The notes under the pieces are model-generated. The model had not been told where the DNA came from. It did not search any database and was given only the letters and a program-made list of their open reading frames with translations. The translations under genes were made by a program, and so were the position numbers. A stretch of 64,000 bases of DNA from Fervidobacterium pennivorans (GTDB taxonomy: Bacteria; Thermotogota; Thermotogae; Thermotogales; Fervidobacteriaceae), in the NCBI RefSeq assembly GCF_001644665.1, contig NZ_CP011393.1, forward strand, positions 704,001 through 768,000, read 5' to 3'. Below, in pieces: positions 22,688 through 32,951 of this stretch. Numbering within the stretch: position 1 is the first letter of the stretch; each line of letters begins with the position of its first letter.

Positions 22688-23575
22688 ATGAAAGAAGTTA
22701 ACAAGAAGAAACAAAACAGTTCTATCAAAACAAACAAAGACCAAGTTGTTCAGCTTTCAATATTGGTAGAAATAGCACACCCGGTTGTCCGTATGCCAGT
22801 TGTTGATGGTAATGGCAATTCGTTTTACATTCCCGGTGTTGGAGGTATCACATACAACTTCGGGCTTGGTGACAATGCATTCAAGATGCACGGTGACCAT
22901 ATCGAACCTGATGTTAGCGCCAAAAACAAAGACAAGGACTTAAATCCCACTTGTATGGCTCTTGCATGTATTGGGAACGAAGCAGCAGTAATATCCGGAG
23001 ATGCGAAAGGCATGAAAGGATACGTAATAGGAAAGCATGGAGGAATAGACCATATATTAATCTGGTTTCCAGAGAAAGAAAAATTAGCAGTTGGAGATAA
23101 GATACAGATTAAAGCCTGGGGACAAGGGCTTGAAATTGTTAACTATCCAGAAGTCAAAGTCATGAATATAGATCCAGATTTGTTTGAGAAGATACCGATA
23201 AAAATTAAGAATAGTAAATTGCAAGTTCCAGTTACTGCTATCGTTCCTGCACACCTAACGGGTTCTGGAATCGGAGCTGGTAATCCATCAGCTACTGACT
23301 ATGATATGAATACTTTGGATAAAGAAGAAATTAAGAAGTTCAAACTCGATAAAGTAAGGATAGGAGATTTAGTTGCAATATCAGACCACTACAACGGTTA
23401 CGGAGCCGGAGGTTACAAAGAAGGTGCCGTTTCGATAGGTGTTGTCGTTCATTCGAATTGCTACAAAACAGGACACGGTCCAGGGATGGTGATAATAATG
23501 ACCTCAAAAGAAGGAGACATAGTGCCAGTTCTCGATAAAGATAGTAATATAAAAAACTACCTCAATATACGTTGA
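22688..23575 (+). CDS. DUF4438 domain protein (TM1086-like)
   Basis: 295 residues. The whole chain from about residue 20 matches, as far as I recognise it, the DUF4438 family whose Thermotoga member TM1086 was a structural-genomics target; biochemical function is unknown. Glycine-rich conserved pieces include IPGVGGITYNFGLGDNAF, GDHIEPDVSA, GKHGGIDHI and GAGGYKEGAVSIGVVVHSNC. The first 20 residues are a basic, disordered-looking tail (KEVNKKKQNSSIKTNKDQ). ATG follows GGAGGG. Closed by a strong terminator. Confidence 0.75.
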   Translation: MKEVNKKKQNSSIKTNKDQVVQLSILVEIAHPVVRMPVVDGNGNSFYIPGVGGITYNFGLGDNAFKMHGDHIEPDVSAKNKDKDLNPTCMALACIGNEAAVISGDAKGMKGYVIGKHGGIDHILIWFPEKEKLAVGDKIQIKAWGQGLEIVNYPEVKVMNIDPDLFEKIPIKIKNSKLQVPVTAIVPAHLTGSGIGAGNPSATDYDMNTLDKEEIKKFKLDKVRIGDLVAISDHYNGYGAGGYKEGAVSIGVVVHSNCYKTGHGPGMVIIMTSKEGDIVPVLDKDSNIKNYLNIR

Positions 23576-23600: not shown

Positions 23601-23630
23601 ATCCCACCCGGCAACGGGTGGGATTTCTAT
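23601..23630 (+). terminator. Intrinsic terminator after DUF4438 gene
   Basis: ATCCCACCCG (23601-23610), loop GCAA, CGGGTGGGAT (23615-23624), then TTCTATT. A perfect 10-bp stem with a tetraloop. Confidence 0.88.
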
Positions 23631-23769
23631 TCTCAGTTGTAAAAGTCAGAATATTTAAGAAAATATGCAATATTGAGAAAATATTTCAAATATTACTGAT
23701 TTCCCAGAACAATCGTGGATACATTTCCGAATTTCCATATATCTTTCATAATGTTACAAGTGCTATAAT

Positions 23770-23808
23770 CTGAAAGGTGATTCATATAAAATATAATATA
23801 TGATTCAT
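23770..23808 (+). promoter_or_regulatory. Putative promoter with overlapping repeat operator
   Basis: -35 CTGAAA (23770-23775), 16-base spacer, -10 TATAAT (23792-23797). Two copies of TGATTCAT (23778-23785 and 23801-23808) flank the -10 box, and ATTCATATA/TATATGATT form an imperfect inverted repeat around it. A good candidate for control by the TetR-type regulator encoded one gene downstream, but the link is inference. Confidence 0.5.
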
Positions 23809-23863
23809 CTTTTAACAAGTCGTTATTGAAACCCACTTTGAATATACGAGGAGGTTTACTAAG

Positions 23864-24847
23864 ATGAAGTACGCAAAGATTATTTCCTCTGGGATGTACG
23901 TTCCTAAAAAAGTGATGACGAACGCGGAGTTTGAAAAGTTAACGATGTTTACTATTGACCCATATTTCTCAGATGCGATTGGTATCAATCACAGACATAT
24001 TTCAGAAGATTGGGAAACTCCTACTTATATGGCTGCAGAAGCTGCGAAGAAGGCACTCGCGCGAATTGGTATGAAACCGGAAGAAATTGATTTGATTATC
24101 GTTGGTACAGATACTCCGGAAGCGGTATCCCCACCAGATGCTCCAAGGGTTCAGTACCTCATAGGTGCCCACAAAGCAGAACCACTCGCTTTCAATGTAA
24201 ACGCATCATGTGCAAATGGAGCGTTAATGCTTGATATCGCAGCAAGGTATATAGCCATGGGGGATTACAAAAATGTCCTCGTTATAGGTACATATGCGAT
24301 GACTAAGTTCCTAAGTTGGAAATATTCATGGGAAGCTCTTTTTAGTGATGGCGCAGGTGCATTGATACTTACAGCATCAGATGAACCAGGGTTTATAGGT
24401 AGTGTGGCGCGTGCAGACGGTAGTTGGTGGCAAAACTGGGGAATATACATGGGAGCAGGCACCATGAATTTGGCAGGTTTTGAAAGAGGACTTCACAAAT
24501 TGGACCTTAGAGCTGCTTATCCATCTACAGTCAATGAGGAAGGATGGCCTATGTTGATTAATAAACTTATGGAAAAATACAACATCACAAAAGACGAAAT
24601 TGGTATGATATTCTTTACGCAAGTAAGGAAAAAGACTATTGAAAAAGTTATGGAAACACTTGGACTGCCAATAGAAAGAGCACATATGATTATGCATAAG
24701 TACGGCTACACTGGTTCTGCATGTGTCTATATGGCTTACGATGACGCATTTGACGAAGGAAAGATAGAGCAACTAGAAGGCAAGGTAGTTATCTTCTTGA
24801 CATCCGGTGTTGGGTATCAGCAAGTTGCTACTGCTTTTAGAATGTGA
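23864..24847 (+). CDS. Ketoacyl synthase III-like protein lacking the usual His and Asn
   Basis: 327 residues with the thiolase fold of FabH. The nucleophile is kept in NASCANGA (Cys116), and the C-terminal glycine-rich end resembles FabH. However, the catalytic His of the usual HQAN motif is Thr252 (FFTQVRKK), and the catalytic Asn of YGNTSA is Tyr282 (KYGYTGSA). It may still form an acyl-enzyme, but standard decarboxylating condensation is doubtful; acyl transfer or a thiolysis-like reaction are options. It is not next to other fatty-acid genes. Instead it opens a cluster with a TetR-type regulator, a CoA-transferase and an ABC importer. ATG follows CGAGGAGG. Confidence 0.8.
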   Translation: MKYAKIISSGMYVPKKVMTNAEFEKLTMFTIDPYFSDAIGINHRHISEDWETPTYMAAEAAKKALARIGMKPEEIDLIIVGTDTPEAVSPPDAPRVQYLIGAHKAEPLAFNVNASCANGALMLDIAARYIAMGDYKNVLVIGTYAMTKFLSWKYSWEALFSDGAGALILTASDEPGFIGSVARADGSWWQNWGIYMGAGTMNLAGFERGLHKLDLRAAYPSTVNEEGWPMLINKLMEKYNITKDEIGMIFFTQVRKKTIEKVMETLGLPIERAHMIMHKYGYTGSACVYMAYDDAFDEGKIEQLEGKVVIFLTSGVGYQQVATAFRM

Positions 24848-24914
24848 TGTTTAGACCTTTGTTGATTATTTACCACTTTTTTCGAATTAATTGAAGGTGT
24901 GGAGGTAATATAGA

Positions 24915-26156
24915 GTGAAGAAGAGAGAAATGCCTCAGAAAAATGTAAAAATTACTAGAAATAAAAAAGCAAAAAGGATACCTCAACGTGCTGATGGTAT
25001 AGAATCTAAGAATAAACTAAAGAAGGCTGCCATAGGACTTCTTAGTAAAAACAGCTTTTCCAACGTGTCCATTTCACAAATTACTAAGCATGCTGGCTTG
25101 AGCACTGCTGCCTTTTATCAATACTACATTAACAAGGATGAGTTGTTTCGAGAGATTGTTGACGATTTCATAAGAGACCTCAAACATTCATTGGAAGGAG
25201 AGTCTATAACAGATGTCGCACTAAAATACTTTGAATACTGCAAGAGAAATAAGAACTTAATCCAAGCCATACACCTCAACGAATATCATTTCGAATGGTT
25301 GAGGAACGAATTTGAAGATGTAATACAATCTATCTCAGAAAAGCATGGCTTAACTGATGTTGGGCTCTTCTACTTCTGGTCACCAATAAGGTTTGTAATT
25401 AACTTCGGGGAGTTGTTGGGTGTAAAGGTAGAACCTAATGTTCTTTTATCGCTCATTGTAAACGGTATTCAGAAAGAAAAGAAGGAGTTGCAAAATCTTC
25501 CGAAAGAGGTATTTACATTCACACCCGAAAAACATGTTCTCGAAGTTGATGAAAAACGAGAATTAATACTTGCAAATGCAGAAAGCTTGTTTGGAACTTA
25601 TGGTTACCAAAAAACGCAGATATATGACATCGCAAAGGCATCAGGAATCGGGGTTGGGACTATATATCTATACTTTGAAAATAAAAAGGAAATCTTACGT
25701 GAATTAGTACGATGGATAAATAAGGGGCTAAGATACAACGTTAGAAAAGCCATGGAAAATGTTAAACAGTATCCAAGGTTAGTTCAGGAAATAGCCGGGT
25801 TGTACGCCTTTGTCCAGTTCTTCAAAAGTCACGCAAACATGTATAAAATCGTCAGAGAAAGCCAGTCATTAGATTTAGAGATTGCGAAAGATTATTACAC
25901 ATCAATATTTATTCCTTACTGCAAAGCTTTAGAAAACTCATTTAATGACGGGAAACTCCAACTAAATTCGGAAAAATTCGGGACTATCGACACAAAAAGC
26001 ATTTTGCAATATATTGCTATGCTATTAATGGGAATTGGTCATTACTTGGGTGAACGATATATTCTTGCAGGCAAAGTTTCTGATACAGAAAAGTTGGAAC
26101 GTTTTTTGGAAGATATCTACGTTTACCTCTCCAAAAGCTTGGGGGTGGCAATGTGA
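24915..26156 (+). CDS. Tandem double-TetR transcriptional regulator
   Basis: 413 residues, about twice a normal TetR protein. Two separate TetR DNA-binding domains are visible: about 33-80 (KNKLKKAAIGLLSKNSFSNV, ITKHAGLSTAAFYQYYINKDELF) and about 213-262 (KRELILANAESLFGTYGYQK, IAKASGIGVGTIYLYFENKKEIL). Each is followed by a helical segment of 120-150 residues that would be its ligand domain. The first 30 residues are very basic. One chain could act as an intramolecular dimer. Start GTG 24915 has GGAGG 10 bases ahead. Its stop overlaps the CoA-transferase start by 4 bases. Confidence 0.88.
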   Translation: MKKREMPQKNVKITRNKKAKRIPQRADGIESKNKLKKAAIGLLSKNSFSNVSISQITKHAGLSTAAFYQYYINKDELFREIVDDFIRDLKHSLEGESITDVALKYFEYCKRNKNLIQAIHLNEYHFEWLRNEFEDVIQSISEKHGLTDVGLFYFWSPIRFVINFGELLGVKVEPNVLLSLIVNGIQKEKKELQNLPKEVFTFTPEKHVLEVDEKRELILANAESLFGTYGYQKTQIYDIAKASGIGVGTIYLYFENKKEILRELVRWINKGLRYNVRKAMENVKQYPRLVQEIAGLYAFVQFFKSHANMYKIVRESQSLDLEIAKDYYTSIFIPYCKALENSFNDGKLQLNSEKFGTIDTKSILQYIAMLLMGIGHYLGERYILAGKVSDTEKLERFLEDIYVYLSKSLGVAM

Positions 26157-27436
26157 ATCTAAGAGAGGAATATGAAAAGAAACTTACTGATATTGACAAG
26201 GTGTTGTCAATCCTTCAAGATAACTGGACAATCGTTGTTGGGATGACTCCCATGGAGCCGAAAGTTTTCCTGAGAAACTTGCATCGAACGCAAGCTAGTG
26301 GCCTTGAAATCTACACATGTTTAAACACAGAGCCTTATGAATTTTGTTCAAACGAAGAATATTTCAATAGATTTTACAACTATTCTTGGTTTTTCGGACC
26401 TTACAACCGAAAGCTTTCAAAAAACACATATTATGTTCCAAACAATCTGCACCAAGCTGGTATGAACCTTATACAATCTACTAAGATAAACGTTTTTGTT
26501 GGGGTAGCCTCTCCTATGGATGAAAAAGGGTTCTTCACATTGTCGGCAAGTGTTGTCTACGAGAAGGATGTGCTTGAGAATGCAGATATAGTTGTCCTCG
26601 AAGTAAATCCAAACGCTCCAAGAACTCATGGTGATACTCACGTCCACATTTCCGAAGTTGATTACATAGTGGAGGTAGACTATCCTTTGCCACAAGCAGA
26701 GCTTCTCGAACCAGCCGAAGTTGAGAAAAAGATAGCAGAACATATTGTGGAACTTATAGAAGATGGTGCGACTATTCAACTTGGAATTGGCGGGATACCA
26801 AATGCTGTTGCGAAGTTCTTAGTTGACAAAAAAGATTTAGGTATACACACAGAGATGTTCACGGAGAGTATGATAGACCTCTTTGAAGCAGGAGTTATCA
26901 CGAATAAGAAAAAAACTCTTTGGAACGGAAAGTTCGTATGTACTTTTGCTTATGGCAGCCAGAGAATGTATAAGTTCATCGATGATAATCCATCAGTGCT
27001 ATTTTTGAGAGGCAGGTATGTGAACGACCCCTACATCATAGCCCAAAACGACAAAATGGTCAGTATAAACACTGCACTCATGGTTGATTTGACAGGAAAT
27101 GTTTGCTCCGAAGCAATTGGAACAAGTCATTACAGTGGTACAGGCGGTCAACTGGACACTCATAGGGGAGCTGTAAAGAGCAAAGGAGGCAAGGGCATTA
27201 TAGCAATGAGGTCTACTGCAAAAGATGGTCAGGTCTCCACGATAGTTCCGTTACTTCCACAAGGGTCACCCATCACGGTTCCACGGCAAGAACTGGATTA
27301 CGTTGTGACAGAGTGGGGTGCGGTAAGACTTAGAGGATTACCAACAAGGAAACGTGCACTTGCGTTAATATCAATAGCGCATCCAGATTTTCGTGATTAC
27401 TTAACAAAAGAGGCTCAAAAACTGGGATTAATCTGA
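26153..27436 (+). CDS. Acetyl-CoA hydrolase/4-hydroxybutyrate CoA-transferase family
   Basis: 427 residues of the class I CoA-transferase family. QLGIGGIPNAVAKFL forms the CoA-binding loop; LGIHTEMFTESMIDLFEAG includes the segment expected to hold the catalytic Glu; GTSHYSGTGGQLD, GSPITVPRQELDYVVTEWG and LRGLPTRKRALALISIAHPDFR are conserved in this family. It moves CoA between acetyl-CoA and another carboxylate, so it would activate an imported acid or recover CoA. Start GTG 26153 overlaps the regulator stop (GTGA) and is preceded by GGGGGTGG. Confidence 0.88.
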   Translation: MNLREEYEKKLTDIDKVLSILQDNWTIVVGMTPMEPKVFLRNLHRTQASGLEIYTCLNTEPYEFCSNEEYFNRFYNYSWFFGPYNRKLSKNTYYVPNNLHQAGMNLIQSTKINVFVGVASPMDEKGFFTLSASVVYEKDVLENADIVVLEVNPNAPRTHGDTHVHISEVDYIVEVDYPLPQAELLEPAEVEKKIAEHIVELIEDGATIQLGIGGIPNAVAKFLVDKKDLGIHTEMFTESMIDLFEAGVITNKKKTLWNGKFVCTFAYGSQRMYKFIDDNPSVLFLRGRYVNDPYIIAQNDKMVSINTALMVDLTGNVCSEAIGTSHYSGTGGQLDTHRGAVKSKGGKGIIAMRSTAKDGQVSTIVPLLPQGSPITVPRQELDYVVTEWGAVRLRGLPTRKRALALISIAHPDFRDYLTKEAQKLGLI

Positions 27437-27491
27437 GTGTGTAGAGCTCATTTTTGCTACCATTTTCATTCCATCATAGGAGGTGGGTTGT

Positions 27492-28652
27492 ATGAAAAAG
27501 TTGTTAAGTGTTATTCTTATGCTCGTCTTTTTGGTAAGCTTGTTTGCTGAAGTTGGGGTTTATAACGACAAAGTTGTTATTGGAACATTCCAAGCGTTGT
27601 CCGGTCCTTATGCAATCATCGGGCAAGAGATGAGCAAAGGAATGAAAGCGTACTTCAACTGGATTAACAGCAGAGGTGGTATCCATGGGAGAAAAATAGA
27701 ACTAATAATCGCTGATGACCAACTCAACCCAGCAAAGACTGTTGTTGAGGTCAAGAGGCTAGTTGAGCAAGACAAAGTCTTTGCAATTGTCGGTGGACTC
27801 GGAACTTATGGCTGTTTGGCAGTTATGGATTACCTCGAACAGAACAAAGTTCCATTTGTGTATCAGGGTGCGGGAACATCAAAACTCGTTATTCCTCCGA
27901 AAAAATACATCTTCGGTGTACAACCAGACTACACTCTTGAAGGAACACTTATCGGTAAGTACGTAGGAGAGATTGCGAAATTCAAAAATCCAGCAATCGT
28001 TTACATGAACAACGATATTGGTTTAGAAGGTTATGCTGCTTTTAAAGCTAAGCTTGAAGACTACAAAATGAAACCAGTTGTTGAGATTTCCTACAACCCA
28101 GCTGATACAGATTACAGCGGACTTGTTGTAAAGCTTGTTGAGAAGAATCCAGACGTTATTGTTATCTATGGACTTATTACAGACACAATAAGATGGGTTA
28201 AAACAATTCGCGACTATGGTCTTGATAGCAAGATAATCACCATCTATCCGAATGCTGACCCATCTTTCATCAAATTAGCTGGTAAATACGCTGAAGGTGT
28301 TATTTTTACAGGATGGGTGCCACTCGCGACTCCTGATAGGCCAGAATTTGTTAGAGATTATCAAAGAGCCATATCTATTTATCAACAAACATACCCGAAA
28401 GAAATAATGTCCTCATATGCAGTTGCCGGGTTTATTGCAGCAGAGGTATTCACAGAAGGCTTGATTAGGACTGGAAAGAACTTGACAAGGGAAGGTCTTG
28501 TGAAGGCTCTTGAAAGTTTCAAAAACTGGAATGGTATACTTGCAAAAGATATTACGTGGGGTCCAAACCTGAGACGCGGTAAGTCCTCAATGTATTTCAT
28601 GGTTGTTAAGAACGGTCAATTTGTGCCTCTCACCGACTTAATTAGACCATGA
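27492..28652 (+). CDS. ABC transporter substrate-binding protein, branched-chain amino acid type
   Basis: 386 residues. An N-terminal signal peptide (KKLLSVILMLVFLVSLFA, no lipobox cysteine evident) precedes a type I periplasmic fold: VVIGTFQALSGPYAIIGQEM, INSRGGIHGRKIELIIADDQ, AIVGGLGTYGCLAV. This is the LivK/HAAT family, whose members bind branched-chain amino acids, amides, urea or organic and aromatic acids. The specific ligand cannot be read here; the CoA-transferase next door hints at a carboxylate. Start ATG 27492 follows AGGAGGTG; the upstream GTG lies within that site. A strong hairpin separates it from the transporter genes. Confidence 0.9.
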   Translation: MKKLLSVILMLVFLVSLFAEVGVYNDKVVIGTFQALSGPYAIIGQEMSKGMKAYFNWINSRGGIHGRKIELIIADDQLNPAKTVVEVKRLVEQDKVFAIVGGLGTYGCLAVMDYLEQNKVPFVYQGAGTSKLVIPPKKYIFGVQPDYTLEGTLIGKYVGEIAKFKNPAIVYMNNDIGLEGYAAFKAKLEDYKMKPVVEISYNPADTDYSGLVVKLVEKNPDVIVIYGLITDTIRWVKTIRDYGLDSKIITIYPNADPSFIKLAGKYAEGVIFTGWVPLATPDRPEFVRDYQRAISIYQQTYPKEIMSSYAVAGFIAAEVFTEGLIRTGKNLTREGLVKALESFKNWNGILAKDITWGPNLRRGKSSMYFMVVKNGQFVPLTDLIRP

Positions 28653-28727
28653 GAAATTAAAACGGTTTTTTGAAAAAGAATATTTCAGCGGTAATCGCAA
28701 AGTATTTTGTTTGCTGAAAACTTGTGT

Positions 28728-28784
28728 GCCGCGGGCGATAGTTAAGGTGAATTAAAACTCTCCCGATAAAAGCCCGCGGCTTTT
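28728..28784 (+). terminator. Large hairpin between binding-protein and transporter genes
   Basis: GCCGCGGGC (28728-28736) pairs with GCCCGCGGC (28772-28780), followed by TTTTGT; the 35-base loop is A/T-rich. A smaller inverted repeat TTTCAGC/GCTGAAA (28683-28689, 28713-28719) precedes it. Probably a partial terminator or mRNA stabiliser giving more binding protein than permease. Confidence 0.7.
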
Positions 28785-28846
28785 GTAAGTAAGGTAAGAA
28801 TGAAGTCGAACAACGGCAACATTAAAAAAACGGGAGTTGAGAAGTG

Positions 28847-29611
28847 ATGCTAAAGCTTGAGAATATAACGGTTAGGTTTTCTGGACTTGTGGCAGTTGAC
28901 AACCTTTCGATGGAAGTCAAGGAAAAAACCATACATTCCCTGATAGGACCCAACGGTGCTGGCAAAACCACTGTTTTTAACGCCATATCTGGATTGGTTA
29001 AACACGATGGGAGTATTATCCTTGATGGCAAGGATATCACTCACGTGCCGGTTCACAAAAGAGTTTATCATGGTCTTGGAAGAAGTTTCCAGAACATCAT
29101 TATCTTCAAATATATGACCGTATTACAGAATTTAATGCTTGGGTATCACTCGAAATTGGATTACAATCATTTCGATGAAGTTATGTATACGAGTAGATTC
29201 TCATTGGAGGAACGAAAGGCAAGATTGAAAGCTATAGAAGTAGCTGATTTACTTGGTATAAAGAGCATACTGGGAGTTTACGCTGGAACACTTCCATACG
29301 GTTTCCAAAAACTCATCGACGTCGGAAGAGCGCTTATGACTGAGCCAAAAATACTCCTTCTTGACGAACCTGCTGCAGGTTTGACCGAGAAGGAATCAGA
29401 TATTCTCAAAGAGAGAATCATTAAGATAAAAGATAGGGGGATTACTGTTTTTCTCATTGAACACGATATGCGCATGGTGCTCGATATATCGGACAGAATA
29501 ACTGTAATTAATTTTGGAAAAAAGATTGCGGAAGGTACAGCTCAAGATGTTATCAATAACGAAGAAGTTATAAAAGCGTACCTTGGTTCAGGTACAGCAA
29601 CAACCCAATAA
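28847..29611 (+). CDS. ABC transporter ATPase, LivG family
   Basis: 254 residues, one of the two cytoplasmic ATPases of a branched-chain-type importer. Walker A GPNGAGKTT, LivG-type GRSFQNIIIF, signature region YGFQKLIDVGRAL (Phe in place of the usual Gln), Walker B ILLLDEPAAGLTEKE, and H-loop FLIEHDMRMV. ATG 28847 follows CGGGAG. Next gene begins 21 bases on. Confidence 0.9.
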   Translation: MLKLENITVRFSGLVAVDNLSMEVKEKTIHSLIGPNGAGKTTVFNAISGLVKHDGSIILDGKDITHVPVHKRVYHGLGRSFQNIIIFKYMTVLQNLMLGYHSKLDYNHFDEVMYTSRFSLEERKARLKAIEVADLLGIKSILGVYAGTLPYGFQKLIDVGRALMTEPKILLLDEPAAGLTEKESDILKERIIKIKDRGITVFLIEHDMRMVLDISDRITVINFGKKIAEGTAQDVINNEEVIKAYLGSGTATTQ

Positions 29612-29632
29612 TGGTTCAGAGAGGTGAAAACA

Positions 29633-30361
29633 ATGAAGTTTTTTCAACGAACAGACACTAAGGACATTTTAGTCAAGGGGCTTAATGTCTGGTATGGACC
29701 TGTTCATGCTGTAAAAGGTATAGACCTAAACATTCCAGCTGGAAGCGTAACGGCCATACTTGGTGCCAATGGAGCGGGCAAAAGTTCAACATTAAAAGCT
29801 ATTGTTGGAAGTGTCAAATACAATGGAACAATAATCCTTGGAAATGAATCTATAGATGCTCTACCTGTTCACGAAAGAGTAAAAAAGGGAGTTGTGTTGT
29901 GTCCAGAAGGTAGAGGGATATTTTACCAAATGACTGTAAAAGAAAACCTCTTGGCAGGGGCTTATACAAACAAGACCCCAAACTTCGACTTCGTTTTTGA
30001 TATCTTTCCATTCTTAAAAGAACGGCTCAACCAAATAGCAGGTACTTTATCAGGTGGAGAACAACAAATGTTAGCAATTGCAAGAGCCCTGATGGCAAAT
30101 CCTAAATACTTGCTCCTCGATGAGCCTTCGCTTGGATTGGCTCCTATCGTTATTGAGAAGATTGTAGAAGTAATAAAACATGTCAACGAGTCTTTGAAAA
30201 TTACTGTTGTACTTGTGGAACAAAACACATCCGTAGCTCTCGGCATTGCACATTATGGTTATGTTTTAGAAAACGGAAGAGTGGCACTTTCTGGCAATGC
30301 GGAAGAGCTTAAAGATAACCCAGTTGTTCGCGAGAAATATCTTGGGGGTGTTAGAAAGTGA
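29633..30361 (+). CDS. ABC transporter ATPase, LivF family
   Basis: 242 residues, second ATPase of the importer. Walker A GANGAGKSST, CPEGRGIFYQMTVKENL, signature LSGGEQQMLAIARAL, Walker B YLLLDEPSLGLAP, and VVLVEQNTSVAL are typical of LivF. Start ATG 29633 has GAGGTG 7 bases ahead; the GTG at 29624 falls in the ribosome site. Its stop overlaps the LivH start by 4 bases (GTGA). Confidence 0.92.
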   Translation: MKFFQRTDTKDILVKGLNVWYGPVHAVKGIDLNIPAGSVTAILGANGAGKSSTLKAIVGSVKYNGTIILGNESIDALPVHERVKKGVVLCPEGRGIFYQMTVKENLLAGAYTNKTPNFDFVFDIFPFLKERLNQIAGTLSGGEQQMLAIARALMANPKYLLLDEPSLGLAPIVIEKIVEVIKHVNESLKITVVLVEQNTSVALGIAHYGYVLENGRVALSGNAEELKDNPVVREKYLGGVRK

Positions 30362-31236
30362 TAAACCAAATACTTCTTGGCCTTTCAACAGGTGCTATGT
30401 ATTCATTAGTCGCTATAGGGCTTGTCATGATGTATAAAGTGAGTGGTGTTATGAACTTCGCTTACGGAAATATGGGGATGTTCATGACTTATGTAATTTG
30501 GTGGTTGAGTTCTTCAATTGGGCTCAATATATTTGTTTCCATAGCATTAGGAATAATATTTGCTGCTCTCATAGGTATTTTAGTAGAACGATACGGCTTG
30601 AGACCAATAAGACATCTTTCTCACGGTTCGATGCTTATCGTTACGTTTGGAATACTCATGATTTTGGAAGGGTTGGCTGTCCAACTCTGGGGGACTGAAT
30701 ATAAATCATTCCCTGAGCTTATAACGGGTGCTCCATATGTGATAAAGGGAGATTTTGGAATAATGGTTATTCGTAGGCAAGATATATTGGTCTTTTCAAT
30801 ACTTGCAGTGGTTTCAATTGCCATCGCTCTGTTTACTAAGTTTACCAAGTTTGGTATCGCCGTTCGTGCAGTTTCAGAGAATGAGGAAATTGCAAGCTAT
30901 ATGGGTATAAATGTGGGGTCTGTTCTAGCATTTTCTTGGGCTTTTGGAACGGCTATGGCTGCACTGGTAGGAGTAATTGCCGCACCTAAAGTTTTCGTCT
31001 CACCAACAATGCTTACATTCTATCAAATACAAGGTTTCACAGCTGCTGTCTTGGGCGGATTTGAAACATTTACTGGAGCAGTTTTCGGTGGCTTGCTGTT
31101 AGGTGTCATAGAGAAAATCGTGGGTAATTACATTTCTGAAGGTTTTAAGGCATCGATTTCGTTGGTTATCATAGTGATGGTCTTGGTCTTTTTCCCGAAT
31201 GGCTTGTTTGGAAGAAGAGTAAGGAGGCGAGCTTGA
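30358..31236 (+). CDS. ABC transporter permease, LivH family
   Basis: 292 residues, about eight membrane helices. Family motifs: GLSTGAMYSLVAIGLVMMYK, GVMNFAYGNMGMFMTY, AVSENEEIASYMGINV (cytoplasmic coupling loop), AAVLGGFETFTGAVFGGLLLG. Start GTG 30358 overlaps the LivF stop. Its own TGA overlaps the ATG of the next gene by one base, so translation of the two permeases is coupled. Confidence 0.92.
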   Translation: MINQILLGLSTGAMYSLVAIGLVMMYKVSGVMNFAYGNMGMFMTYVIWWLSSSIGLNIFVSIALGIIFAALIGILVERYGLRPIRHLSHGSMLIVTFGILMILEGLAVQLWGTEYKSFPELITGAPYVIKGDFGIMVIRRQDILVFSILAVVSIAIALFTKFTKFGIAVRAVSENEEIASYMGINVGSVLAFSWAFGTAMAALVGVIAAPKVFVSPTMLTFYQIQGFTAAVLGGFETFTGAVFGGLLLGVIEKIVGNYISEGFKASISLVIIVMVLVFFPNGLFGRRVRRRA

Positions 31237-32951
31237 TGCTTTGGATTTGGTTGATACTAGCGTTGTTGCCATTTTTGCTACTAAAAAGTGCTTTCATAAT
31301 TACCATACTTAGCCTTGTAGGAATTTACGCGCTCGCCACATTAGGTTTAAACTTGATTATGGGATATTCAGGGCAAATATCAATAGGTCACGCAGCCTTT
31401 ATGAGCATAGGTGCTTACACTTCCACTTTGCTTGTTATGCAGTACAACATTCCTGTTGTGTTTGGAATAATATTGGGTGGAATAACAGCTTTTATCTTTG
31501 GTATTTTAATAGGTTTCCCTGCACTGAGATTGTCAGGCTTTTACCTTGCCATCGCAACAATGGGGTTTGTTGTTGCTATTGAACAACTCTTCAGTTACCT
31601 TGAACACATTACAGGCGGGCATGCAGGGATAAGGAACATACCTTTTCCCTTCTTATGGAATTCCGACGTAGAAAAGTATCTGTTAGTATTTGCTTTCTTA
31701 TTCGTCGCTTACGTTGTTGCTGATAGGCTAATAAACTCCAAAACCGGACGTGCTTGGATGGCAGTTAGGGAGAACGAAATTGCAGCATCTGTGATGGGTG
31801 TAAATATTGCATGGTACAAAGTCCTTGCTTTTGCAATTGGTTCCATGTTCGCTGGTATAGCTGGTGCACTTTATGCACATGTTATCGGTTACATAGCGCC
31901 AAGTGATTTTGGAATAGCAAAATCTCTCGACTTATTGGCTATATCTGTTATAGGTGGTATGGCATCAATAGATGGTCCTTTCTACGGGGCGCTCATTTAT
32001 GTTGCTATGCCATTTTTGTTTAGTAGGTCAAACTTCTCTCTCTCAATCATTTTTGGAGCTTTGCTTATCTTCGTTGTTCTCTTTATGCCATTAGGGATAA
32101 GTTTCTACGTAAAAATATTCAGAATGAACTATTTCAACGCTCTTATAGCGTATCTAAAAAAATCCAGGAGACCATTTGGGATGTTTGTTCAAACTCCCGT
32201 TGGGCGAATACACTATATTAAACATGGAAGCGGAAATATCCCGGTTGTATTAGTCCATGGTAACTTCGCTTCTTCCAGATTTTTTGAGCCATTGATAAAA
32301 AAAATTCCAGAACACCAATTCACGGTTTATGCACTCGATCTGCCAAATTTTGGTTTCTCGGATGAACTCCCAGGGGATGTAAGTATTGAAAAATACGTTG
32401 ATGCGTTGGAAAGCTTTGTGAAAACGCTCGGGATAAACAATTTCATATTGCTTGGTCATTCTTTAGGTGGAGCAGTTGCCATGGGATACGCCATAAGACA
32501 TTCCAAAAACTTAGCTAAATTGGTATTGGTTGACCCTGCACCGATTTTTGGCATGCCACGTTACGATGAATCGGCTTACAAAATTATAGATGTTTATAGG
32601 AAAAATCCAGATATGATTAAGCGGGCCTTGATGATGAACGCTCCGAATTACGATGATGAGGAGTTCTTTGACAGAATAACATCAGATGCCCTAAGAATGG
32701 CAAAGAAAGCGTTCATAGGTAATGCAAAAGCCCTAGCTGATTATAACTACATAGATAAAGCAGTGTTATTAGAAGTGCCTGTTGTAGTAATTTACGGTGA
32801 TAAAGATGTTATACTTGATTATGAAAGCATGAAGAAAACAGCGGAAGCCTTTCCAAAAGGTAAGTTGATAGTGCTGAAAGATATCGGGCATAGTCCGGTT
32901 ATAGAAGCACCAGAAAAGGTTATAAAACATCTCACAGATATAGTAACATAA
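31236..32951 (+). CDS. LivM permease fused to a C-terminal alpha/beta hydrolase
   Basis: 571 residues. Residues 1-~300 are a LivM permease: LNLIMGYSGQISIGHAAFMSIGA in its first half, FYLAIATMGFVVAIEQLF, AVRENEIAASVMGVN, ISVIGGMASIDGPFYGAL. From about 314 a complete alpha/beta hydrolase follows, with oxyanion loop VHGNFAS, nucleophile in GHSLGG (Ser409), acid in YGDKDVIL (Asp524) and IGHSPVIEAP (His552). The linker is basic (KIFRMN...YLKKSRR), so the hydrolase should face the cytoplasm. An internal ATG at 32181 has AGGAG 10 bases before it and could also give a free hydrolase. Such a fusion is unusual for this transporter family. The hydrolase may act on the imported compound (inference). Confidence 0.92.
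   Translation: MLWIWLILALLPFLLLKSAFIITILSLVGIYALATLGLNLIMGYSGQISIGHAAFMSIGAYTSTLLVMQYNIPVVFGIILGGITAFIFGILIGFPALRLSGFYLAIATMGFVVAIEQLFSYLEHITGGHAGIRNIPFPFLWNSDVEKYLLVFAFLFVAYVVADRLINSKTGRAWMAVRENEIAASVMGVNIAWYKVLAFAIGSMFAGIAGALYAHVIGYIAPSDFGIAKSLDLLAISVIGGMASIDGPFYGALIYVAMPFLFSRSNFSLSIIFGALLIFVVLFMPLGISFYVKIFRMNYFNALIAYLKKSRRPFGMFVQTPVGRIHYIKHGSGNIPVVLVHGNFASSRFFEPLIKKIPEHQFTVYALDLPNFGFSDELPGDVSIEKYVDALESFVKTLGINNFILLGHSLGGAVAMGYAIRHSKNLAKLVLVDPAPIFGMPRYDESAYKIIDVYRKNPDMIKRALMMNAPNYDDEEFFDRITSDALRMAKKAFIGNAKALADYNYIDKAVLLEVPVVVIYGDKDVILDYESMKKTAEAFPKGKLIVLKDIGHSPVIEAPEKVIKHLTDIVT

Follow-up and report, generated by a model that had tools for sequence, protein, structure and literature searches.

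An operator-defined regulon of Fervidobacterium pennivorans with a permease-fused hydrolase and a KASIII-like protein, possibly for the fermentation of short-chain 3-hydroxyalkanoates

Which compound is handled by a gene cluster that joins a Liv-type importer, one of its permeases fused to an alpha/beta hydrolase, with a coenzyme A (CoA) transferase, a KASIII-like protein (KAS3) and a double TetR regulator? This cluster of Fervidobacterium pennivorans is located at positions 23778-32951 of the stretch analysed here, i.e., the window, whose 64,000 nucleotides correspond to positions 704001-768000 of the 2.06-Mb genome (NZ_CP011393.1; genome label G000, contig C1). According to the list of open reading frames (ORFs), it comprises eight genes, all on the + strand behind a single promoter/operator, with overlaps of 4 bp at three junctions (26153, 30358 and 31233). 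The domains of all eight were verified with Pfam and NCBIfam searches: ACP_syn_III with its C-terminal domain, two TetR_N domains, the N and C domains of AcetylCoA_hydro, Peripla_BP_6, two ABC ATPases, and two BPD_transp_2 permeases, the second of which shares its ORF with an Abhydrolase domain. A preliminary description of this DNA had proposed the eight genes in one direction, their overlaps, an operator-like promoter, the fused hydrolase and the double regulator; the ORFs, the domains (BPD_transp_2 with Abhydrolase in one ORF, two TetR_N in one chain) and a conserved direct repeat confirm all of these. There is good support for the module and its regulon; as to the compound, the answer that we favour, with moderate confidence, is that this regulon serves the fermentation of external short-chain 3-hydroxyalkanoates, with 3-hydroxybutyrate (3HB) and short ester oligomers derived from a polyester of the polyhydroxybutyrate (PHB) type as the likeliest substrates.

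The preliminary description had made its proposal depend on a gene order that is kept beyond this strain, and this is the case in Thermotogota, where the gene content is also kept; in Bacillota the gene content is maintained more loosely. Orthologues of KAS3 with 67-98% identity were found in 26 other Thermotogota genomes (103 searched), and Liv genes adjoin the KASIII gene in all 27 genomes, that of the window included, mostly together with the LivM::hydrolase fusion. The genes follow each other as KASIII, TetR, CoA-transferase, binding protein, LivG, LivF, LivH and LivM::hydrolase in Fervidobacterium and in its sister genus; outside these two genera KASIII comes after LivM::hydrolase. Some of the Thermotogota contigs are incomplete, hence part of these gene-order calls is partial. 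The close relatives among the named contigs are metagenome-assembled genomes of Fervidobacterium. In the genomes grouped as f2, the operon includes a FabG/PhaB-like reductase, and these genomes also encode a second KASIII-like protein (KAS3b) and mostly a second Liv importer. The Thermotogota search found no KAS3 in, for example, the related genomes G077-G083 and G089-G099. Two additional, divergent Liv importer clusters lie directly 3' of KASIII in G061 (L068:6199-16908).

The promoter connects the cluster with a second locus. Its -10 element, TATAAT with a TG extension (TGCTATAAT; 23764..23769, + strand), is conserved 5' of KASIII in an alignment of 11 genomes from the genus and from its sister genus. 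Operator unit 1, TAATCTGAAAGGTGATTCA (23766..23784, +), overlaps the -10 element, and the core of unit 2, TGATTCA (23801..23807, +), is a direct repeat 23 bp downstream of unit 1. Across the aligned genomes, the pattern TATAAT-N-TGANAG-N-TGATTCA is preserved despite diverged flanks, and the second TGATTCA, 23 bp on, is present in 10 of the 11; the left half of unit 2 is degenerate in the window genome and complete in G075 and G076. The repeat TGATTCA...TGATTCA with this spacing (23778-23808) occurs once in the window and was not found in shuffled sequences. Perfect matches to TAATNTGANAGGTGATTCA are present at just two sites of the window genome, compared with 0.0008 expected from base composition: one is unit 1 of the KASIII promoter, and the other lies ~50-65 bp 5' of a distant thiolase gene. 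This second locus (G000:C1 ~247930-249944), 480 kb from the cluster, consists of the thiolase and a FabG/PhaB-like reductase, the latter 71% identical to the reductase of G086; in G086, G088 and G057 a thiolase and a FabG/PhaB-like reductase are found inside the operon itself, an arrangement seen in other families. When 20 genomes of the family were scanned allowing at most one mismatch, 31 operator sites were detected versus none with a reversed control pattern, and 29 of them stand at KASIII, thiolase or hydrolase-KAS3b genes; the same scan gave no site in the family's seven genomes without a KASIII-like match. The tetR promoters of the f2 genomes show an AATGTGA-type site ending in GATTCA in seven of nine cases, and a [TC]GAATCA core is present in all nine upstream regions of KAS3b, against a background of 0.05 TGAWTCA sites per 150 bp. 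At the level of sequence, it is well supported that the cluster and the distant thiolase-reductase pair form one regulon defined by its operator. The eight genes first described stand for the window, but the metabolic set reaches to a locus outside it.

A few observations on these sites and on the borders of the cluster should be added. In G070 (L144, G070:C1:744453), a site with one mismatch has no known regulon member adjoining it. Two candidate targets were rejected as chance occurrences: a flagellar rod gene, whose ribosome-binding site is overlapped by a 1-mismatch site, and a peroxiredoxin-like gene with a 2-mismatch site 5' of it. The sister genera G084 and G085 (L132, L133, L143) lack a window-type cluster, yet they show hydrolase-KAS3b genes under operator-like sites, possibly a reduced version of the system; the locus of G085 also holds a TetR2-like gene. 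Directly 5' of the cluster, and beside it across the genus, is the gene of a DUF4438 (domain of unknown function) protein (22688-23575); 3' of this gene, a terminator-like hairpin (23601..23624, +; 10-pair stem with seven GC pairs) marks the upstream boundary of the cluster.

The double TetR regulator (24915..26156, +) has its first TetR_N domain near residue 35-80 and the second at residues 218-264; only three TetR_N domains exist in the window genome, and two of them are in this protein. For its AlphaFold2 model, predicted with confidence (pLDDT 82.7, pTM 0.79), the top full-length match among solved structures was DNA-bound Mce3R (9b7y; 412 columns, TM 0.56-0.59, root-mean-square deviation 7.4), followed by SaFadR and then Bacillus FadR, both solved with acyl-CoA ligands. 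Because the nearest folds of the predicted structure are those of Mce3R and of acyl-CoA-binding FadRs, an acyl-CoA is a plausible ligand by analogy. We infer that the regulator is a single-chain repressor that binds the operator sites at both promoters, where it would fold as one asymmetric unit and occupy the operator over the -10 element, until an acyl-CoA of the pathway frees it.

The hydrolase may point to the substrate. The last gene (31233..32951, +) encodes a LivM-like permease (approximately residues 1-300) fused to an alpha/beta hydrolase (approximately residues 325-572), which retains the Ser-Asp-His triad of depolymerases in the motifs GHSLGG (408; GHSLGGA), GDKD (522) and GHS (552). 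Besides the window, 22 fetched loci show the fusion, and the Ser, Asp and His motifs are intact in every case where the sequence extends over them; among the Bacillota LivM proteins examined, not one has a hydrolase attached. In G057 (L088:12068-14273), the LivM::hydrolase ORF is broken between its two domains, and the adjoining genes are intact. The hydrolase domain is probably on the cytoplasmic side, because the linker after the last hydrophobic stretch of LivM is positively charged, with six K/R and no D/E. Its best match among solved structures is the intracellular PHB depolymerase 8ynv, and the best curated hydrolase model is NF050089, i.e., the intracellular short-chain-length polyhydroxyalkanoate (PHA) depolymerase.

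As an independent test of the depolymerase link, 399 Bacillota genomes were searched for PRK06840, the family to which the f2 KAS3b belongs (484 bits, above the cut-off of 315); it is present in 37 of them. The 20 Bacillota neighbourhoods examined hold mostly a CoA-transferase, a Liv importer and hydrolases, often a reductase, and in some cases a MaoC-type hydratase or a 3-hydroxybutyryl-CoA dehydrogenase; a window-type KASIII with 33-42% identity is present in six. Six hydrolases of these clusters score above the NF050089 cut-off (312-462 bits). NF050089 occurs in 20 of the 399 genomes, 18 of which also have PRK06840 (Fisher p=4e-19, a value that overstates independence given the kinship of the genomes), and by position the two lie within ~7 kb on the same contig in 15 of the 20. 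The physical linkage of NF050089 and PRK06840 in Bacillota is clear. Judged by sequence, these PRK06840 clusters (L184-L203) often encode PAS-type or very large (~1075 aa) regulator-like proteins in place of the double TetR.

The CoA-transferase (26153..27436, +; both AcetylCoA_hydro domains above cut-off) had been placed in class I, which is correct and can be specified further as the 4-hydroxybutyrate/butyryl-CoA type; the nearest PDB chains are 4-hydroxybutyrate CoA-transferases. With 307 bits, it is below the cut-off (674.8) of TIGR03948, the butyryl-CoA:acetate CoA-transferase equivalog, and its acyl specificity is therefore left without assignment. For the regulon as a whole we infer a catabolic route in which the binding protein and the Liv importer would take in 3HB or an oligomer, and the permease-fused hydrolase would cut ester bonds in the cytoplasm as the substrate leaves the permease. 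The CoA-transferase would use acetyl-CoA as the CoA donor to convert 3HB to 3HB-CoA, the FabG/PhaB-type reductase would oxidize this to acetoacetyl-CoA, and the thiolase would yield two acetyl-CoA, from which acetate and ATP could be formed. Recycling of stored PHB and formation of butyrate were also considered and are disfavoured, because the window genome has no PhaC_N match (a class III synthase might go undetected with this model) and no crotonase above cut-off.

Several points weigh against the route proposed. The window hydrolase reaches 132.4 bits against the NF050089 cut-off of 300 and so falls outside that family; the depolymerase association in Bacillota was counted with the PRK06840 KASIII and not with the window-type KASIII, and it covers the intracellular family NF050089. 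The reductase matches both FabG and acetoacetyl-CoA reductase models, none of them decisively; the clusters of G071-G073 are devoid of a CoA-transferase; KAS3 is part of the module without an assigned reaction; and the open-licence literature searched gave no report that Fervidobacterium grows on 3HB or PHB.

The same architecture could also serve a different substrate, such as another short carboxylate, a hydroxy acid, a lactone or an ester (for example 4-hydroxybutyrate, butyrolactone, or branched and 3-oxo acids); after import, this compound would undergo ring opening or de-esterification and activation with CoA before it is split to acetyl-CoA. The kinship of the CoA-transferase to 4-hydroxybutyrate CoA-transferases agrees with this, as does the fact that extra hydrolases of the relatives have 3-oxoadipate enol-lactonase models as their nearest match; in addition, thiolases and alpha/beta hydrolases are promiscuous families. 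However, the strongest external link is that with short-chain PHA depolymerases, a FabG/PhaB-type reductase suits a 3-hydroxyacyl-CoA, and the Thermotogota clusters examined showed no gene for a mutase, a dehydratase or ring processing. We regard another substrate as rather unlikely, while 3-hydroxyalkanoate esters appear the likeliest of several classes, a choice in which our confidence is again moderate.

KAS3 (23864..24847, +) is predicted to have the FabH fold and keeps an invariant Cys116; the catalytic His and Asn are replaced by Thr252 and Tyr282 in 27/27 Thermotogota and 6/6 Bacillota members, so that the Cys-His-Asn triad of FabH is absent. Ser115, Tyr144, Asn224, Trp228, Cys287 and Ser314 are also invariant, and none of them was seen in the FabH proteins compared. 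The protein scores 188 bits with the FabH-type subfamily (cut-off 249) and 117.6 bits with PRK06840 (NF005308), below its cut-off; the active site of KAS3b is altered as well, in a different manner. Because Thr and Tyr replace His and Asn in all orthologues, KAS3 is, by its residues, not an ordinary ketosynthase, and together with KAS3b it looks like an acyl-CoA-handling enzyme rather than an ordinary decarboxylating ketosynthase. A bolder reading, in which an import-coupled polyester-oligomer system has a permease with its own depolymerase and KAS3 (with KAS3b where present) represents a new class of Cys-dependent acyl-CoA enzymes, not ketosynthases, seems doubtful to us; as an example, enzymes of such a class may convert 3-hydroxyacyl esters and CoA directly to 3-hydroxyacyl-CoA.

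The remaining subunits of the importer, i.e., the LivG-like ATPase (28844..29611, +), the LivF-like ATPase (29624..30361, +) and the LivH-like permease (30358..31236, +), were assigned by Pfam/NCBIfam. All the transporter subunits fall in Liv families, as expected if this were a usual importer of branched-chain amino acids that happens to have unrelated lipid genes as neighbours. In LivJ, Glu226 holds the amino group of the bound amino acid, and S79, T102 and Y202 are further ligand contacts. In a low-identity alignment with the binding protein of the window (27483..28652, +; Peripla_BP_6), S79, T102, Y202 and E226 correspond to T, G, L and Y, and the Tyr at the Glu226 position is shared with the 13 close orthologues aligned; the amino-acid-contact residues of LivJ thus appear to be missing. 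Moreover, operator and gene order link the importer to the CoA-transferase, the thiolase and the reductase. An amino acid importer is therefore very improbable, and a plain leucine/isoleucine/valine importer was rejected from the binding-site residues and the regulon. At the sequence level, this outcome also favours the preliminary description, against which a binding protein limited to these three amino acids would have counted. The preliminary description had proposed a module for import, hydrolysis and CoA activation, switched by an acyl-type ligand. The module itself, its conservation, a binding protein without the Glu and the Mce3R/FadR folds bear this out, but the proposal was incomplete in lacking the second operon (a thiolase and a reductase that share the operator), the link to short-chain-length PHA depolymerases, the two catalytic residues lost from KASIII and the Mce3R precedent for double TetR regulators.

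Could KAS3 be the missing FabH of the organism, in a cluster for fatty-acid or lipid synthesis? The genes fabF, fabZ, fabK-like, fabD and fabG are found together at G000:C1 530002-534709 (L120) without fabH, and the window genome gave no second KASIII-like match at the threshold used. Nevertheless, the loss of the triad residues in all orthologues, the patchy distribution that leaves the related genomes named above without KAS3, and its linkage to a thiolase and an importer disfavour a FabH replacement, which we consider highly improbable. Equally improbable is that the module runs biosynthetically, with 3-hydroxyacids made and exported or stored: thiolase and reductase are also the first steps of PHB synthesis, but PhaC_N is absent, a Liv system that includes a binding protein works as an importer, and CoA-transferase and hydrolase suit breakdown.

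If the proposed 3-hydroxyalkanoate route is true, it would show how polyester oligomers can be transported and activated in thermophilic and anaerobic bacteria, the uptake of PHB breakdown products there being little described in the literature searched, and the permease fused to an intact hydrolase would be a simple model of import coupled to breakdown. PRK06840 and the Thr/Tyr family, two KASIII-like families that are widespread but unassigned, would also gain a testable metabolic setting. Double TetR regulators would be extended to a second phylum, and the defined direct-repeat operator would allow a direct test of the single-chain model. In the open-licence literature, nothing direct was found on PRK06840 and the present gene set, and the AW-1 keratin paper treats TetR and transporters in general terms only. 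The parts belong to known families; for their combination, for the fusion of permease and hydrolase and for the operator-defined regulon, that literature appears to offer no description.

Among known systems, the PHA degradation route begins with PhaZ/PhaY, after which 3HB is oxidized and activated with CoA, and ends with thiolase (PMC7830162). The window regulon shares with it a PhaZ-fold ester hydrolase, a CoA-transferase, a thiolase and a 3-hydroxyacyl oxidoreductase; it differs in its dedicated Liv-type importer, the hydrolase on the permease, the KASIII-like protein, the lack of a detected PHA synthase and, probably, a CoA activation to hydroxyacyl-CoA that precedes oxidation. The Ser-Asp-His motifs are common to the NF050089/8ynv depolymerases and the window domain, but the latter is below the family cut-off and fused to LivM. 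The importer has the subunit set and folds of LivJ/LivKHMGF from E. coli, with changed binding-site residues and a LivM that carries the hydrolase. KAS3 has the fold and the catalytic Cys of FabH/KASIII and PRK06840, but Thr and Tyr take the places of the catalytic His and Asn. Finally, Mce3R is a published double TetR that acts as one asymmetric unit with a non-palindromic operator (PMC11667970). As in Mce3R, the window regulator has two non-identical TetR units in a chain of ~410 residues, and its candidate site is conserved, asymmetric and likewise non-palindromic; on the other hand, the two proteins have ~14% identity in the structural alignment, belong to different phyla and have different target genes, and the candidate operator of Fervidobacterium, unlike that of Mce3R, is a direct repeat.

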